From: a virus
Length of the DNA stretch: 24,703 bases
IMG/VR virus record: IMGVR_UViG_3300025687_007527
Location: 1-24,703 of that record
Reading direction: 5' to 3' (one strand)
The notes beneath the pieces were generated by a model. It was not told the DNA's origin. It made no database searches and worked only from the letters and a program-made list of their open reading frames with translations. Every line of letters begins with the position of its first letter. Position 1 is the stretch's first letter. Below are positions 1-24,703 of this stretch, one piece after another. Position numbers and translations under genes: made by a program.

Positions 1-978
1 TGTATTTGAAACTTCCACATATTGGACCTTTCTTTGAAATTCATCAACATGCCTTGCGCCAGCATATGTAAATGCAGATCGTAATCCACCAGTAAGTTCA
101 TCAATAACTTTTTGTGCCGAACCTGTAACTGGAGCCCAAAAGGCCTCACCTTCAGCTACGGTTCCTTCTTTTAAACCGCCCTTAAAATCTTCTTGAAAAT
201 CTTTTGATGCTTGTCCACGATATTTTGCCAAGAAAGGCTCAGCAGATAGTTCAGAACCTTTCTTTTCGGCCGCACTCTCTACAGTTAAGGCGAATATCTT
301 TCCCATCATAACAGTAGTTGCCCCTGCGGCGAGAGCTTTTGCAATATCAGCGGAACCTCTAATACCACCATCAGCGATAATAGGCACTCCATATTTTTTT
401 GCTTCATAAGCGCAGTTTTCTATTGCAGTAAATTGAGGAACGCCAAAGCCAGTAACCATTCTAGTTGTGCAAGCGGCTCCAGGACCGATTCCAACTTTAA
501 CTGCATCAGCACCAGCATTTACCAAATCAATATATCCTCCAGCGGTACAAACATTACCAGCAATAATTTCAAACTTATATTTTGATTTCAAATGTCTAAC
601 AAGATCTAACATTCTACTATCATGACCGTGTGCAATATCAATACACACACCACGAACGCCAGACTTGCTATAATGCTCTAAAAGACTTTCTTGTTCATTC
701 ATGCCAATGGACATATAACAGTATTCATTGAATTCTTCTGCTATTGAAATTAATTCATCTTGTTTTGCAAATCTGTGAAAGATCGGAAATGTTCCGTTGT
801 TCAGTAATATATTTGCCAGATCTCTTCCAATAACAGTATCCATGTTAGCGGCAATAATAGGAATTTTAATTTTTGTTTTTGCTGTAAGCCAAGTTGACAG
901 AGAAGGCTCTGTTCTTGAGGGAACATTGTTAAATTGGGGCACCAAGGCAACATCATCAAATGTTAATGCTTTCTTCAT
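1..978 (-). CDS. GMP reductase / IMP dehydrogenase family protein (3' end cut by window edge)
   Basis: The frame is open from the ATG at 978 to the left edge (326 codons, no stop), so the C-terminus is missing. It has the IMPDH/GMPR TIM-barrel hallmarks: [11 protein letters not shown] near residue 5, [10 protein letters not shown] around 40-49, the nucleotide loop [11 protein letters not shown] with the catalytic cysteine at about 170, IIADGGIRG around 200-208, and a YRG flap motif near 253. The CBS pair that usually interrupts IMPDH is absent. The AANMDTV and HRF segments and the lack of an obvious Arg-Tyr flap dyad lean towards GMP reductase (GMP to IMP), but a CBS-less IMPDH cannot be excluded. 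Either role would adjust guanine nucleotide pools during infection. AGGA precedes the ATG at suitable spacing. The gene begins only 27 bp after the stop of the truncated polymerase and looks co-transcribed with it. Confidence 0.88.
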
Positions 979-1005
979 ATAATATTCCTATAGTTTAGGG
1001 TTTAT

Positions 1006-2463
1006 TTACAATCCACGCTTATGCAATTCTTCTTTTACTCTCTCTAGCTCTTTTTTAGCCGCTATCATTTTGTTCTTATACATCTTTCTATCTTCATACA
1101 TTCTCATGAGAATGTCTGGAAGAAAACCAATCTTTTCATTAGAGAAACATTGTCCATTTGCGGCATAGCTTACATTAGAATCAGAAAATCTCTTTGTATC
1201 TACACTTTCACTCAACAGAGACTCAACTCTTGTTGATGAGTACATATCTGGAAGCAAACATTCTGGAGATATGTTCCATTGTGCTATAATGTTGGGATAC
1301 AGACTATTCAAATCAAAAGATACTACCCAGTTCTTTGAACATGCTTCGACATCTTTAACATATGCTCCAGCATATTCTGTACTCTTCTCGCCTTTAGTCA
1401 TTTTAGGAACAACAATATTCTTTTTTCGCAAATCATTAAATATAATAGTGTCCCAAAGTCGCACTTGTGCAAAAACATCAGTAAAGTTCACTTTAGCATC
1501 GTATGCTAGAGCAATTACCATTTCTATTAGTTTTAACTTCTTCTCAAGTCTGGAAACAAGCTCAACATCTTTGATGTTATATTCCATAAAAAGTTGAAAA
1601 TTATTTTTGTATAGATTGTGCAAGTTTCCATACTCTTCATAAGAGATCTTCTTTTCGCCAAGCTCAACATAAGATATATAATTTAACTTGTTACTCTCTT
1701 TCTTTGGCTGATAGCGAATATAGAGATCCATGTAATCAAGAACAGATATTCCAGCAAGTTCTATTTGCTCTTGTGTTTTGTTTAAATAGTAGACATCTTT
1801 TTTGCTTGCTATCTTCCATGGCGATAATTTCTTGGCTTCACTCTCACCAAGAACTCTTTCGATTCTATTATACAAATATGGAATATCATAAAACTGTATG
1901 TTCCATCCAGTTATGATGTCTGGAGATATATGACTCCAATGCTCTAAGAATTTTCGCAAAAGTCCCGCTTCATTCTCACACTTGATATACTTAACAGATG
2001 GATTATCAGTAACGAAATCTCCACAACCAAAAGATAGATATGTTCCGTTTACATCTATGGTTATGGCAATAACTTCTTCAAAAGGATTGTCAGGCTTTGC
2101 GAAACCAACTTCAGATGCAACTTCAATATCTATGTTTGCCACTACGATGTCTCTAATATCGTAATCAATTAGATCTTTGAAATTATCAGATATGAACGCA
2201 TAATGAAACTTTACATTTCCATAATATGTAAAATTATCAACGCTGTCGTATCTTCTAATAAAGTCTCTAGCTTCGCTCACAGTAGAGAATGTTATCTTAT
2301 CAACATTTTTTCCATCTAGAGTTTTCCACTTAGTGGGAACTTTAGAGTCAACAAACAAAGAAGGCGAGTAGGGAATCTTATGTAAGACTCTCTCGCCATT
2401 CTCAGTTCCTCTGTAAAATATGTGATCGCGGATAAGAAAGAAGTTTGTGTATTGTTTGCTCAT
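1006..2463 (-). CDS. 43: Family B DNA polymerase, N-terminal part (gp43A-like: exonuclease plus palm motif A)
   Basis: This is the N-terminal part of T4-type replicative polymerase gp43, 485 residues against about 900 for an intact family member. The 3'-5' exonuclease is intact: D112/E114 (NIDIE, the same numbers as in T4), Exo II TGWNIQFYDIPY around 185-196, and Exo III YNIKDVELV around 295-303. Palm motif A DLNSLYP lies at 384-390. The protein ends after a charged helix, LERVKEELHKRGL, which by alignment with RB69 gp43 is the start of the fingers. Motif B (KxxxNSxYG) and motif C (DTD) are missing, so this chain alone cannot polymerise. The stop is followed by a short spacer and the GMPR gene, with no polymerase remnant in between. 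T4-like Aeromonas phages have split gp43 genes, so a partner 43B outside the window is the likeliest explanation. No Shine-Dalgarno sequence is seen. Confidence 0.93.
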   Translation of the reverse strand: MSKQYTNFFLIRDHIFYRGTENGERVLHKIPYSPSLFVDSKVPTKWKTLDGKNVDKITFSTVSEARDFIRRYDSVDNFTYYGNVKFHYAFISDNFKDLIDYDIRDIVVANIDIEVASEVGFAKPDNPFEEVIAITIDVNGTYLSFGCGDFVTDNPSVKYIKCENEAGLLRKFLEHWSHISPDIITGWNIQFYDIPYLYNRIERVLGESEAKKLSPWKIASKKDVYYLNKTQEQIELAGISVLDYMDLYIRYQPKKESNKLNYISYVELGEKKISYEEYGNLHNLYKNNFQLFMEYNIKDVELVSRLEKKLKLIEMVIALAYDAKVNFTDVFAQVRLWDTIIFNDLRKKNIVVPKMTKGEKSTEYAGAYVKDVEACSKNWVVSFDLNSLYPNIIAQWNISPECLLPDMYSSTRVESLLSESVDTKRFSDSNVSYAANGQCFSNEKIGFLPDILMRMYEDRKMYKNKMIAAKKELERVKEELHKRGL

Positions 2464-2470
2464 AGCTAAT

Positions 2471-2499
2471 ATAATACAGAATAAATCTTATTATGTCAA
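2471..2499 (-). promoter_or_regulatory. Sigma70-type early promoter for gene 43A
   Basis: On the minus strand TTGACA (2499-2494) is followed after 17 bp by TATTAT (2476-2471). Transcription would start near 2464, next to the ATG at 2463-2461, so the mRNA would be almost leaderless. It overlaps the stop codon of the preceding gene. Confidence 0.55.
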
Positions 2500-2796: not shown

Positions 2797-3240
2797 TTAT
2801 ACTTCCTTTAGAAACAAATTCATTTCAGATTCTCTTCGTCTAACTAGACCAGGCAAAACTTTTCCGCCAGCTTTGTTCCATCGCAAAAATTCCTTTGATG
2901 CTCCATCAAAATCTTCGCCATTCAGTTTTCGTAGAAGTGTCGATTTTTTAAATGCTCCCAATCCAATATTGTATACAAAACATACTAAAGCATCAAATTG
3001 ATTTTGATTCAAATCAACTTTCACTAGAGAATTGATTCCATTTTCAAAATCATATAGATCAGCATCTAAAAAAACATTAGCTTCATCTAGTGTTATTTTC
3101 ATGCCTTCTGGAACTGGCTTTCCATTTATCACAGTCGTTCCAAAGCCTATCGTATTAACTCCAGCAGGACAGACATATGCATGAGATCTAAATCCCTCAT
3201 ACTTTTTTATTAGATTCTTTCCTTCTTTACCTGTTTTCAT
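2797..3240 (-). CDS. T4-type lysozyme / endolysin (GH24)
   Basis: A peptidoglycan-cleaving muramidase of 147 residues from the preferred ATG at 3240. The catalytic pattern is E-x8-C-x5-T: the Glu of KKYEGF, the Cys of YVCPAG and the Thr of NTIGFG. T4 lysozyme has Asp at the middle position; Cys is found in the P1/R21 type of GH24 endolysin. GLVRRRESEMNLF is the usual C-terminal helix. A longer reading from 3303 would overlap the conserved end of dut by about 60 bp and add a hydrophobic stretch; I reject it because the ATG at 3240 follows the dut stop by 4 bp and has GGGGAAA upstream. With the short start there is no signal sequence, so export would need a holin, not seen here. It lies between dut and the Sm-like gene, inside the replication operon. 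Confidence 0.88.
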   Translation of the reverse strand: MKTGKEGKNLIKKYEGFRSHAYVCPAGVNTIGFGTTVINGKPVPEGMKITLDEANVFLDADLYDFENGINSLVKVDLNQNQFDALVCFVYNIGLGAFKKSTLLRKLNGEDFDGASKEFLRWNKAGGKVLPGLVRRRESEMNLFLKEV

Positions 3241-3244
3241 TTTA

Positions 3245-3781
3245 CTATTTCCCCGTAGAACCAAAGCCACCATTTCTAGAACTCTTCTGAGAAGGCTCAT
3301 CATAAGTCTCCTCTATTGAGCATCTCAAATCTGATATTAACTCTGCTTGACATATTCTATCTCCATGCTTTATTTTTTGCTCAATGCAAGATGCGTTATA
3401 GATTGAAACAAAAACTTCTCCAAAATAATCTTCATCAATAACACCCTGACAATTTGATAACATAAGACCATTCTTGAATGAAAGTCCAGAGCGAGGATGT
3501 AGTCTGACTGAACAATTTATGGGTATTTGAAACTTTAGTCCAGTTGGAATCAAACTTCTGCTATTTGCAGGCAATATAATCTCAAAATCTTCACTAACTG
3601 AAAGCTCATCAAAAATTTCAGTATTTCCATGAGCCTCTTGAGGAAAAAAAGATTTTACTTTAGCAAATTCTTTATCTTTGACTAAACAAGCATGAATGTC
3701 AAAACATGAAGAGTATTCGGTCGAATACTGAGGAATAATAGCTTCGGGAAAGCACTTATACACATTTAATTTATTTGTCAT
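3245..3781 (-). CDS. dut: dUTPase (deoxyuridine 5'-triphosphate nucleotidohydrolase)
   Basis: Trimeric-type dUTPase, hydrolysing dUTP to dUMP and PPi, which keeps uracil out of phage DNA and supplies dTMP synthesis. All five motifs are present in 178 residues: motif 1 SSCFDIHA (about 24-31), motif 2 PRSGLSFKNG (96-105), motif 3 GVIDEDYFGEV with catalytic Asp 116, motif 4 GDRICQAEL (140-148) and the glycine-rich motif 5 RNGGFGSTGK at the extreme C-terminus. Residues 32-65 form an insertion between motifs 1 and 2 that is longer than in compact bacterial enzymes. The start is ATG at 3781 with GGTG upstream. The stop lies 4 bp before the lysozyme start. An intact motif 5 argues for a full-length, active enzyme. 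Confidence 0.95.
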   Translation of the reverse strand: MTNKLNVYKCFPEAIIPQYSTEYSSCFDIHACLVKDKEFAKVKSFFPQEAHGNTEIFDELSVSEDFEIILPANSRSLIPTGLKFQIPINCSVRLHPRSGLSFKNGLMLSNCQGVIDEDYFGEVFVSIYNASCIEQKIKHGDRICQAELISDLRCSIEETYDEPSQKSSRNGGFGSTGK

Positions 3782-3817
3782 AATATATACACCAATTTTA
3801 CATTACAATATTAAAAA

Positions 3818-7426: not shown

Positions 7427-8731
7427 TTAAACAACATCTGGAACTACAGAACTCTGTTCAGTTTCAGAAATTGAATTCTCATCACTAGCAGTCTTATATT
7501 GGTCTATAGCATCATAGAACTCAATAAAAGAAGATTTAGTGTAATCATCGAATCTAGCTATACACATTTGAATAGCTTGACTTCTAACATTATACAGAGA
7601 AACTTTATATTCAGAATCACTCTGAGTATCTACTTTCTCTGGATGTCCTAGAATTGCATACGCATTAGAAATATGAACTAATCGCCTGGTGCTTATTAGA
7701 TCATTTATTCCTCCACTATCATAAGTTTTTCTAGTACCATTTGCCCAAGCCACCAGCTTGAAAATAAAGTCATCAATATATTCATCTTTCATATCATTAG
7801 ATGAAAATATTGATTTTAATATCTTAGTTTCTACGGCTTCACTGGGATACTCTTGTTCAAAAGTAGCACAAAATCTCTCAAGAAATGCCTCATTAAGAAT
7901 GTTAGTTCCAATAAACTTTCCACTCTCGGATCCCTGACCTTTAGTATTAGCCGTAGCTACTATTGTGAATCCATCTTTAGGCTTTACAAACTGATTTATT
8001 TTCTTGAGAAGAATTCCTTTACCCTCTAGCACTGGCTGTAAACATAGTAGCTTATTACTTCCTAGATCAACTTCATCTAAAAGAAGAACTCCACCACTTT
8101 TCATAGCTCTAACTACTGGACCGTCAAACCATTTAGTAGTTCCATTGACTAGTCTAAATCCACCAAGAAGATCGTCCTCATCAGTCTCAATAGTTATGTT
8201 TACCCTGTACAAATCTCGTTTACTTTTAGCACAAGCCTGTTCTATCGAAAAAGTTTTGCCATTACCAGATAGACCAGTGACAAATATTGGATAAAACTTT
8301 TTAGACTTTATTATACTATGTAGTAGTGAGAAGTGTCCATGAGATACAAATCCAGAATCAACATCAGGAACCATAGATGTCTGCTCTGTGGTATGAGAAA
8401 AATTCTGTAGTGCAATTTTATCATCAGCAAAATTGTCTTTTTCCGTAGGCAAAGATACTTCTGATACTTCTGATACTTCTGATACTTCTGATACTTCTGA
8501 TACTTCTGAAGTATTAGAGTCTTTTGCATTAATGCAAAGGACATCTTTTGCATTTGGAGTGTAGTATCCACGAGAAACTTGATAAGCTGGATCTTTATAG
8601 AACCAGTTAAGATTCTTATATCCATGTCTATCATTAAATGCTTTCAAGTCTTTTCTCTTTATAGGAGAATCTGAAAAAGTCTCTCTAACATGATTCAGAT
8701 AAGATTCTTTATTTGCTTTAGTATTTGTCAT
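7427..8731 (-). CDS. MoxR/CobS-like AAA+ ATPase
   Basis: AAA+ ATPase of the MoxR/CobS group, often labelled CobS (cobaltochelatase subunit) in environmental T4-like phages, although a true cobalamin role is unproven. The first 60 residues form a small N-terminal domain (KRKDLKAFNDRHGYKNLNWF). Residues 75-93 are a pure SEV tripeptide repeat, then a linker. Walker A GLSGNGKT is at 153-160, Walker B VLLLDEVD at 215-222, sensor 1 around IVATANTKG, and an arginine-finger candidate at LERF. The DLLGGFRLVNG segment is typical of the group. The likely partner is the VWA protein encoded at 11624-13777, since MoxR ATPases usually work with VWA proteins. AAGGTG precedes the ATG, and a consensus-like promoter lies upstream. 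Confidence 0.88.
   Translation of the reverse strand: MTNTKANKESYLNHVRETFSDSPIKRKDLKAFNDRHGYKNLNWFYKDPAYQVSRGYYTPNAKDVLCINAKDSNTSEVSEVSEVSEVSEVSEVSLPTEKDNFADDKIALQNFSHTTEQTSMVPDVDSGFVSHGHFSLLHSIIKSKKFYPIFVTGLSGNGKTFSIEQACAKSKRDLYRVNITIETDEDDLLGGFRLVNGTTKWFDGPVVRAMKSGGVLLLDEVDLGSNKLLCLQPVLEGKGILLKKINQFVKPKDGFTIVATANTKGQGSESGKFIGTNILNEAFLERFCATFEQEYPSEAVETKILKSIFSSNDMKDEYIDDFIFKLVAWANGTRKTYDSGGINDLISTRRLVHISNAYAILGHPEKVDTQSDSEYKVSLYNVRSQAIQMCIARFDDYTKSSFIEFYDAIDQYKTASDENSISETEQSSVVPDVV
8454..8516. repeat. 9-bp tandem repeat (7 copies) inside the CobS-like gene
   Basis: Seven exact copies of GATACTTCT (plus strand) stand head to tail. Translated, they give the SEV repeat in the linker between the N-terminal domain and the AAA+ core. 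As 9 is a multiple of 3, copy-number changes would keep the frame. Confidence 0.97.
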
Positions 8732-8778
8732 TTGTCACCTTATTCATAATGTTATATCTAACAACTTATTACATAATA

Positions 8779-8808
8779 AGTATACATGGATAACACACAT
8801 TTTGTCAA
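8779..8808 (-). promoter_or_regulatory. Sigma70-type early promoter for the CobS-like gene
   Basis: Minus strand: TTGACA at 8808-8803, 18-bp spacer, TATACT at 8784-8779. It lies in the intergenic gap about 50 bp upstream of the ATG at 8731. Confidence 0.6.
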
Positions 8809-8847
8809 TGTTTTTTTGGTAAAAAAGGTAACTTTTATGTTATTGAT

Positions 8848-9771
8848 TTAATTAGACTTTTTAATTAATTTCAATCCATAGTTATTAGGCTCGTCGGGAA
8901 GAACAACATCTTTCTTCAAAATTAGCTGATTGTCTTTGAATTTACTATAGTCTACATGATGGTGCCATCTTCCATATCGCCAAACAACTCTTGAAACATC
9001 TGGATATATATCAGTAAGCATTTTTGATTTTGCAATAGTGCCAGAACTATTATACTCTTTAACTAGAGACTCGGACTCTATGGCTTCTCCAGTTTCTGGA
9101 TCTATTCCCAACTCTTTCTTGTAAATTTCATCAGTGTTTCCCCCACTAACTGTTTGAGTGGCACATTTGCCTTGCAGAAAAGCATTAAACAAAATTGTGC
9201 AATAACCAGAGCTTAAAACATCTAAACTAAGAATTACATCTTCATTATACTTACCCCGCCATCTGTGTGGACAATCATTTCTAATTAGCAAGCAAGAATA
9301 AACTCTAGTGTTTTTAACATATGCTGGATACTTTTGATTTGGAGCAATAAAAAATCTGTACTGAAGTCCAGATACAGGAACATTTTCAAATCTATCAACA
9401 AAATCTTCACACGCCTTAAACATTACTCCACTCTCAACTCTTATACGTTGATTTTGGTGAAGTCTGTAAAAATCTGAAATGTTATCATCCATCAGCCAAT
9501 GCGATTCTGCTCCTATAGATATTGAGTGGTCCCAAGACCAATTTCTAGCTCTTCCAGATCCTTGTCCATGATTAGAAAACGGAGCAACCAACAGAGTGAC
9601 ATACTCTCTAATATTAAACTTATCTAATGCATTGTTGTAATTATCGTAATCTTGAGGTTCAATAACGATATAGTGAGGAACTTTCATTCTAGATAAACTT
9701 CTAGAAGTAAACATAGAAGATGAGCGATTCTTTGAAATTATGTATACTGGATATTTAGGATTTGTAGTCAT
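8848..9771 (-). CDS. TET-associated-type glycosyltransferase (TAGT-like, GT-A fold)
   Basis: A 307-residue protein matching the TAGT pattern: the start PVYIISKNRSSSM, then VPHYIVIEPQDYDNY, PFSNHGQGSGRARNW and the metal-binding motif LMDDNI at 93-98, followed by the FYRL segment. The family was defined next to TET/JBP dioxygenases in phages and is proposed to glycosylate oxidised or hydroxymethylated pyrimidines in DNA. No TET-like dioxygenase or pyrimidine hydroxymethylase is visible in this window, so the acceptor is unknown; glycosylation of protein or surface polymer is an alternative. It lies 16 bp downstream of a second GT-A-like gene and probably shares its transcript. Confidence 0.8.
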   Translation of the reverse strand: MTTNPKYPVYIISKNRSSSMFTSRSLSRMKVPHYIVIEPQDYDNYNNALDKFNIREYVTLLVAPFSNHGQGSGRARNWSWDHSISIGAESHWLMDDNISDFYRLHQNQRIRVESGVMFKACEDFVDRFENVPVSGLQYRFFIAPNQKYPAYVKNTRVYSCLLIRNDCPHRWRGKYNEDVILSLDVLSSGYCTILFNAFLQGKCATQTVSGGNTDEIYKKELGIDPETGEAIESESLVKEYNSSGTIAKSKMLTDIYPDVSRVVWRYGRWHHHVDYSKFKDNQLILKKDVVLPDEPNNYGLKLIKKSN

Positions 9772-23807: not shown

Positions 23808-23815
23808 TATTTATT
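23808..23815 (-). promoter_or_regulatory. Late-promoter-like box before gene 23
   Basis: Minus strand AATAAATA, 7 of 8 matches to TATAAATA, about 46 bp upstream of the gene 23 start and overlapping the last codons of gene 22. Confidence 0.5.
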
Positions 23816-24703
23816 TTCTTCCATTCTCCGAGTTAATCATCTTGCTAATAATATTAGCATATGTATCAAACTCAGTGATTACTTCAGGTGTTGTTTCAGG
23901 ATGTATTCCACCTTCAGTGAGAAGAACATCATCCATTTGGTTTGAAATTACTTTTTTGCTATTGGGAAAATAATTTTCCTTGATAACAACTAGCTTGTTT
24001 TCAAAACTTTTCTCATCAGAAAAAGATACGCCTTCGCAAAGTTCAAAGAACTTGCTTGCTTCGCTACGACTCATTCCTTCAGAAATTTCTGAGATTATAG
24101 CGTTCTTTTTAAGATTATTTTTCTCTTTCTTTAGCTCAATATTCTTATTAATCTCTTCATTGAGTTCAGCTTCTAGAGATTCAATTTTAGCAGATTGCTC
24201 AGAAAGAACATCTAGTTTATCTTCTGGAACATCAATATAATGTGTCTCAAATAGACTTCTCAATCCTACAATGAAATTTTCTGTTATATCAGAACGAATA
24301 GATGACTCTAAAGCAACTTCATTAGTCTTCATCCACTCTTCAACAACATAATCAAGATATCCATCAAGTTTATTTACTAAACTTTCAGAAAGCTCTTCTT
24401 TGTAAGAATTTAATTTTGACTCAAAAGATTCTTCAATCTTTTTTGTCTCAGCTAAAATTTTATTTTTGCTTGCTCTTTTTAGAGATGCTTCAAATATTGT
24501 AGATACTTTTTCTTTGAATGATTCTGAAAGCTCTTCGCCATTAAGCATAGCTTTAGTTGCATCTTCTATGTCTTTTTTCTCTTCTTCAGACATTTCTTTT
24601 TCCATGTCTTCTTCAGACATTTCATCATGCTTCATGTCTTTTTCTTCAGACATTTCTTTTTCCATGTCTTTCATTTCTTCTTCAGACATTTCTTTTTCCA
24701 TGT
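23811..24703 (-). CDS. 22: Prohead core scaffold (gp22-like), start beyond window
   Basis: Internal scaffold around which the gp23 shell assembles and which the prohead protease then degrades. At least 296 residues are visible (T4 gp22 has 269), and the frame is open at the right edge, so the start is not in the window. The visible N-terminal part is a Met-rich acidic repeat (units such as MEKEMSEEEMKDMEKEMSEE), then a long helical, charged body with coiled-coil character (SEQSAKIESLEAELNEEINK), and a C-terminus ending VITEFDTYANIISKMINSEN, similar in layout to gp22 of environmental T4-like phages. The position directly before gene 23 supports the call. Candidate (I/L)xE protease sites are present (such as IFE and LEAE). 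Confidence 0.85.
   Translation of the reverse strand, partial: MEKEMSEEEMKDMEKEMSEEKDMKHDEMSEEDMEKEMSEEEKKDIEDATKAMLNGEELSESFKEKVSTIFEASLKRASKNKILAETKKIEESFESKLNSYKEELSESLVNKLDGYLDYVVEEWMKTNEVALESSIRSDITENFIVGLRSLFETHYIDVPEDKLDVLSEQSAKIESLEAELNEEINKNIELKKEKNNLKKNAIISEISEGMSRSEASKFFELCEGVSFSDEKSFENKLVVIKENYFPNSKKVISNQMDDVLLTEGGIHPETTPEVITEFDTYANIISKMINSENGRK
24583..24703. repeat. Imperfect repeat in gene 22 coding the MEKEMSEE units
   Basis: A unit containing CAGACATTTCTTTTTCCATG recurs at about 24588, 24648 and 24684 (plus strand), with a degenerate copy between. It encodes the acidic Met/Glu/Ser repeats of the scaffold and probably continues past the right edge. Confidence 0.8.

Follow-up and report, generated by a model that had tools for sequence, protein, structure and literature searches.

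What becomes of a replicative DNA polymerase when its reading frame stops in the fingers domain, and where is the rest of the enzyme? The question is raised by gene 43 on a virus fragment of 24,703 nucleotides (IMG/VR record IMGVR_UViG_3300025687_007527; the window, below, means this whole stretch). The features of the window around the stop are as follows.

1..978, minus strand: cargo gene of the IMPDH/GMP-reductase family, 326 of 335 aa, cut by the contig edge (domain match; complete in the relative L003 at 7537-8544)
979..1005, minus strand: junction between the 43A stop and the cargo start, 27 bp, with AGGA 7 nt before the cargo ATG
1006..2463, minus strand: 43A, the N-terminal 485 aa of gp43 (Pfam, PHROGs and motif positions)
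2471..2499, minus strand: sigma-70-like promoter before 43A, TTGACA-17-TATTAT (consensus match only)

43A comprises the N-terminal domain, the 3'-5' exonuclease, the palm with motif A, and the first finger helix. Pfam DNA_pol_B_exo1 matches it with an E value of 1.9e-21, and Pfam DNA_pol_B covers it only over model positions 17-147 of 453. The exonuclease motifs are found at residues 110, 186, and 295 and motif A, FDLNSLYPN, at residue 383; motifs B and C are absent from the 43A frame (residues 1-485), and there is no second PF00136 match elsewhere in the 24.7 kb record. Pfam and the motif positions therefore agree with the original prediction, made from the DNA letters, that the frame ends at residue 485 before motifs B and C, and the 27-bp gap that it described extends from 979 to 1005, up to the IMPDH start. 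PHROGs already holds families with the extents of the two halves, phrog_2062 (502 aa, matched over 2-500) for 43A and phrog_1918 (382 aa) for 43B. The promoter before 43A was scanned on L003 (6016-6044) and then converted to window coordinates; the L003 43B is also preceded by a similar sigma-70-like promoter (8591-8619, consensus match only), and promoter-like hexamers are not above shuffles (21 sites vs 16.9). A phage lysozyme gene (PF00959; window 2797-3303) lies within the replication cluster, two genes before 43A.

The missing half was found in two contigs that are nearly identical to the window, L002 (99.79% DNA identity over 12.5 kb) and L003 (99.94% over 8.5 kb). Both have the gene order 43A, IMPDH (335 aa in full), 43B. 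In L003 the 43B gene encodes 368 aa (8652-9758) and starts 107 bp after the IMPDH gene, and in L002 it is cut at the contig end. Both motif B (KKIQLNSAYG) and motif C (DTDSIY) lie in 43B, together with what remains of the family B core, so that the motifs of a T4-type family B DNA polymerase (gp43) are spread over 43A and 43B, and the layout is that of a split gene 43: two ORFs on the same strand in the order 43A-43B, with the break between the finger helices. The window contig ends inside the IMPDH-family gene, and its own 43B should therefore lie just past the edge, as judged from contigs 99.8-99.9% identical. The search for an ORF with motifs B and C that the original prediction had proposed thus leads to 43B beyond the neighboring gene, and the evolved split (43A plus 43B) that it had suspected is borne out by 43B directly behind the inserted gene in both contigs.

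The window is a metagenome contig, and the stop could in principle be a sequencing or assembly error. The 43A stop is identical in L002 and L003, the same 43A end is kept across a clade of 10 divergent split rows, and the break recurs in a complete isolate genome (S-H34, below). The probability of an artefact is negligible, an assembly artefact being already refuted by the independent contigs.

We consider it very probable that gp43 of this phage consists of two non-covalent halves, paired by long finger helices, with the break used as a cargo slot. An uncultivated marine T4-like phage would make its replicative family B DNA polymerase as two chains: the 43A chain would supply the exonuclease together with motif A and the first of the two finger helices, and the 43B chain (368 aa, outside the window) the second, along with motifs B and C and the thumb. 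The halves most likely assemble without covalent joining, and the two lengthened finger helices would pair with each other in the way seen in the hairpin of intact fingers. Because the break lies in the fingertip loop and assembly would follow translation, genes between the halves, in the window the gene of the IMPDH/GMP-reductase family, would be harmless. We infer operon expression of 43A, cargo, and 43B, and some benefit from the cargo.

Does the break fall at a position where an enzyme could bear it? An AF2 model of the intact gp43 of a relative, L007 (849 aa; pLDDT 87.8 with a 40-sequence alignment), matches RB69 gp43 (Foldseek E about 1e-73), and its fingers consist of a helix (449-482), a loop (483-490), and a second helix (491-525). 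The 43A ends and 43B starts of split relatives align to the loop 483-490, so that the expected position in a fingers loop is confirmed on the model of the intact protein. The span from GFLP to NSAYG has a median of 58 residues in intact polymerases (n=214, most 54-58) and is 70-97 residues in split ones, both halves summed; the finger helices of split enzymes are thus longer, and they plausibly act as a non-covalent clamp.

Split gene 43 is itself known from the Aeromonas phages 44RR2.8t and 25 (Petrov et al. 2010, cited by PMC2988022), where the same enzyme is broken at the same fingertip position as in the window. The 44RR 43A ends with KKILASRGVKLDH and its 43B begins with MELELFRDFNEEELTYLNTLSTDEL. 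The gap is a 49-nt untranslated stretch in 44RR and a seg-type homing endonuclease in phage 25, whereas in the window and its relatives metabolic or other genes occupy it, in many cases with translational coupling; the window clade also occupies another branch of the gp43 tree than the Aeromonas split phages. According to PMC2988022, which refers to Petrov et al. 2010, the two gene 43 products of phage 25 co-purify and polymerise, which makes a two-chain enzyme likely for the window phage as well. Together with the fold, this result suggests that 43A and 43B would assemble non-covalently. It also argues against separate action of the halves, for example with 43A as a free exonuclease or an mRNA-binding repressor, a role to which its complete exonuclease domain would be suited. 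A family B active site is not formable from motif A alone or from motifs B and C alone, and both motif A and motifs B/C are conserved; we therefore regard separate action as very unlikely.

A further alternative is gene decay, in which 43A would be a relic and another polymerase would be in use, and the window itself does lack 43B. However, 43B is intact next door in the L002/L003 type, and the break is kept across a divergent clade. In the closest pair, L098/L324, dN/dS is 0.004/0.231 for 43A and 0.005/0.272 for 43B, about 0.02 each, and both halves are under strong purifying selection. The complete polymerase elsewhere that would have spoken against a split was not found in relatives of 87-168 kb: neither another polB match nor polA is present in L062 (168 kb), L252 (143 kb), L098 (93 kb), or L005 (88 kb), large contigs that are not proven to be complete genomes. 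Decay is accordingly exceedingly improbable.

Could a full-length polymerase be restored by a group I intron, a split intein, or ribosomal bypass? Such elements do visit gene 43, since a group I intron lies in 43B of phage 25 and an intein is annotated in the split polymerase of AS-gz. However, there was no Rfam intron match in the window, L003-L006, L008-L010, L062, L098, or L153, in a scan that did find the known phage 25 intron as positive control, and no intein domain match in 43A or 43B. Moreover, 43B has a start codon of its own, which often overlaps the stop of the cargo, and the bare 43A/43B junctions of L004 and L153 leave nothing to splice. Restoration has, in our view, very little likelihood.

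The relatives, most of them metagenome contigs, differ in what lies in the break.

Window, L002, L003: IMPDH
L010: dCMP deaminase
L005, L006, L008: dCMP deaminase and an ORF of about 205 aa
L098: dCMP deaminase, an ORF of about 205 aa, and a 512-aa ORF
L009: prephenate-dehydrogenase-like gene
L244, L250, L252, and others: 2OG-Fe(II) oxygenase
L255, L270, L282: ORFs of about 88 aa
L062: 125-aa ORF and dCMP deaminase
L242: 111-aa ORF (related to the 125-aa ORF of L062) and tRNA-Asn
L004, L153: empty break, bare 43A/43B junction

The original prediction had contrasted a nucleotide-metabolism gene at this break with the homing endonuclease of Aeromonas phages. The contrast holds for the window but is incomplete, as the relatives have many cargo types, one with an endonuclease-like ORF and some with none. 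Cargo may be drawn from the same neighborhood, since relatives with an intact gp43 have dCMP deaminase homologs upstream of it and 2OG-oxygenase homologs downstream. Losses of cargo occur alongside gains: L324, with 93-95% identity to L098, has no dCMP deaminase, and a stretch of about 50 nt preceding its 43B is similar to the 3' end of the L006 deaminase gene. ORFs of about 205 aa are found in L005 (204 aa), L006, L008, L098, and L324. Only that of L006 has an endonuclease-like match, a weak one (phrog_681, E 2e-6), and a structure model (pLDDT 80) gave no PDB match in a fold search, so that a guessed GIY-YIG fold was not confirmed. The 512-aa ORF stands directly after 43A in L098 (7359-8897) and L324 (2779-4317), with DGQHR and an HNH-like C-terminal stretch seen by eye and no Pfam, PHROG, or convincing NCBIfam match. 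The tRNA-Asn of L242 occupies 3724-3799 of the 43A-43B gap, beside the 111-aa ORF. Permuted tmRNA genes occur on the split-gp43 contigs L255 (327-605) and L270 (5551-5835), with Rfam RF04321 scores of 110.8 and 98.9 bits; ARAGORN agrees and gives the tags ANDSTYALAA and ANDDTYYQDLRLAA.

In many relatives the halves and the cargo would be made together, since the next gene overlaps the 43A stop and has its ribosome-binding site in the last 43A codons. The start that follows 43A overlaps or adjoins its stop codon at 14 loci, and a Shine-Dalgarno-like 4-mer is present in the last 43A codons in 14/14, against 1.0 expected from the same-frame 43A background; several of these loci are close relatives and not all are independent. 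Such sites partly explain the recurring tails RRGL and LKEL. Shared RRGL tails were also considered as proof of one transferred junction and set aside: they encode ribosome-binding sites, a simpler reason for convergence. Transfer of the RRGL junction between phages may nevertheless have occurred.

How often has the break arisen? We fetched 260 loci with an intact frame and about 30 split ones (a few of the loci share a contig), numbers that give no frequency because split queries were used. On a 115-row gp43 tree (fingertip columns removed, short search, simple model), the split/intact label needs 8 changes, 7 of them forced by starred branches; on a careful 33-row tree it needs 6, with a bootstrap range of 5-6. 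The fingertip break thus recurs, with 5-8 intact/split changes on the gp43 tree. Splits are seen in the Aeromonas phages, in the window clade with L062/L242, in L153, in the 2OG-oxygenase group, in L244 (whose sister L268, 86% identical, is intact), and in the group with the 88-aa ORF. The phages closest to that of the window by capsid protein, HTVC008M, Melnitz, and Mosig, have single gp43 frames of 830-851 aa. One shared origin with the Aeromonas split was rejected, as intact gp43 lineages lie between the Aeromonas split rows and the window clade on the 115-row tree; loss and regain may be an alternative to separate origins. L305 (807-4131) and L175 (766-4203) look split and were left out of the trees because their break lies elsewhere, about 25 residues past motif A; the gap there measures 560-750 nt and has no Rfam intron match.

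The break would have been made, or moved, repeatedly in T4-like phages while the cargo turned over, and in at least one lineage gene 43 seems to have been re-fused. L007 (intact) and L005 (split by the 204-aa ORF and dCMP deaminase) are about 99.8% identical over 3.2 kb. The high identity ends inside 43A, at about L007 position 3240 and some 0.9 kb before the break; from there, through the break and on, it is mostly 75-98% per 200-bp window, so recombination has exchanged the break-bearing region. In a tree of that region L007 nests with L005 inside the split clade (100/99). The fingers of L007 are split-type in length (71), and their sequence resembles a 43A tail plus a 43B head, so that, given the near-identical split relative, L007 looks re-fused. 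This is the simplest reading, the alternative being repeated splitting of its neighbors.

A cultured phage has the same break. In the complete genome of Synechococcus phage S-H34 (NC_070965), gp164 and gp166 are annotated polymerase genes of 488 and 366 aa; 43A ends KRRGL*, 43B begins MDLTSLSNEDL, and an 81-aa ORF lies between them. S-H34 differs from the window phage in that its closest gp43 sequences are of the intact cyanophage type and its cargo is another one. The words "split" and "gp43" are absent from its genome paper (PMC7472177). S-H34 is an isolate available for work on split gp43.

Other core DNA-metabolism genes are likewise made as two functional chains by an insert, such as Aeh1 nrdA, split by mobE, and T4 gene 60/39, split by mobA (PMC2988022). 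In these two the insert is a homing endonuclease, whereas the gp43 break holds mainly cargo. Dassa et al. reportedly described, in 2009, "fractured genes" with split inteins, which are also DNA-metabolism genes of phages in two pieces separated by other genes. The gp43 break differs from these in that 43A and 43B are without intein halves.

Split gp43 was therefore already known; new are the fingertip cargo slot, the recurrence of the break, and the natural allele swap between an intact and a split phage. In the literature searched, which covered few subscription journals, no paper on a gp43 fingertip cargo slot was found. On balance we think it probable that the fingertip is a reusable docking site, which can be reopened, loaded, provided with a ribosome-binding site in the polymerase tail, exchanged between alleles, and closed again. 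If so, T4-like phages carry exchangeable metabolic or mobile genes in a core replication gene, and near-identical phages swap intact and split-plus-cargo alleles. With the relatives, an isolated oddity of Aeromonas phages becomes a recurrent evolutionary pattern. Nearly controlled natural pairs are at hand in L005/L007 (split/intact), the sisters L244/L268 (split/intact), and L098/L324 (cargo present/lost). They make three things testable: the cost of a protein split, the means by which a replicative polymerase copes with a broken chain in its moving fingers, and the route by which metabolic genes enter the replication operon of phages.

Two further observations concern other parts of the window. 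An AAA+ ATPase-like protein (8311-8634 and 7427-8731) contains a repeated SEV stretch (TSEVSEVSEVSEVSEVSEVS), and the repeat is open in two frames. The ORF adjoining gp23 (23811-24701) has acidic EMSEE/DMEKEM repeats at its N-terminus and is possibly the head scaffold protein.
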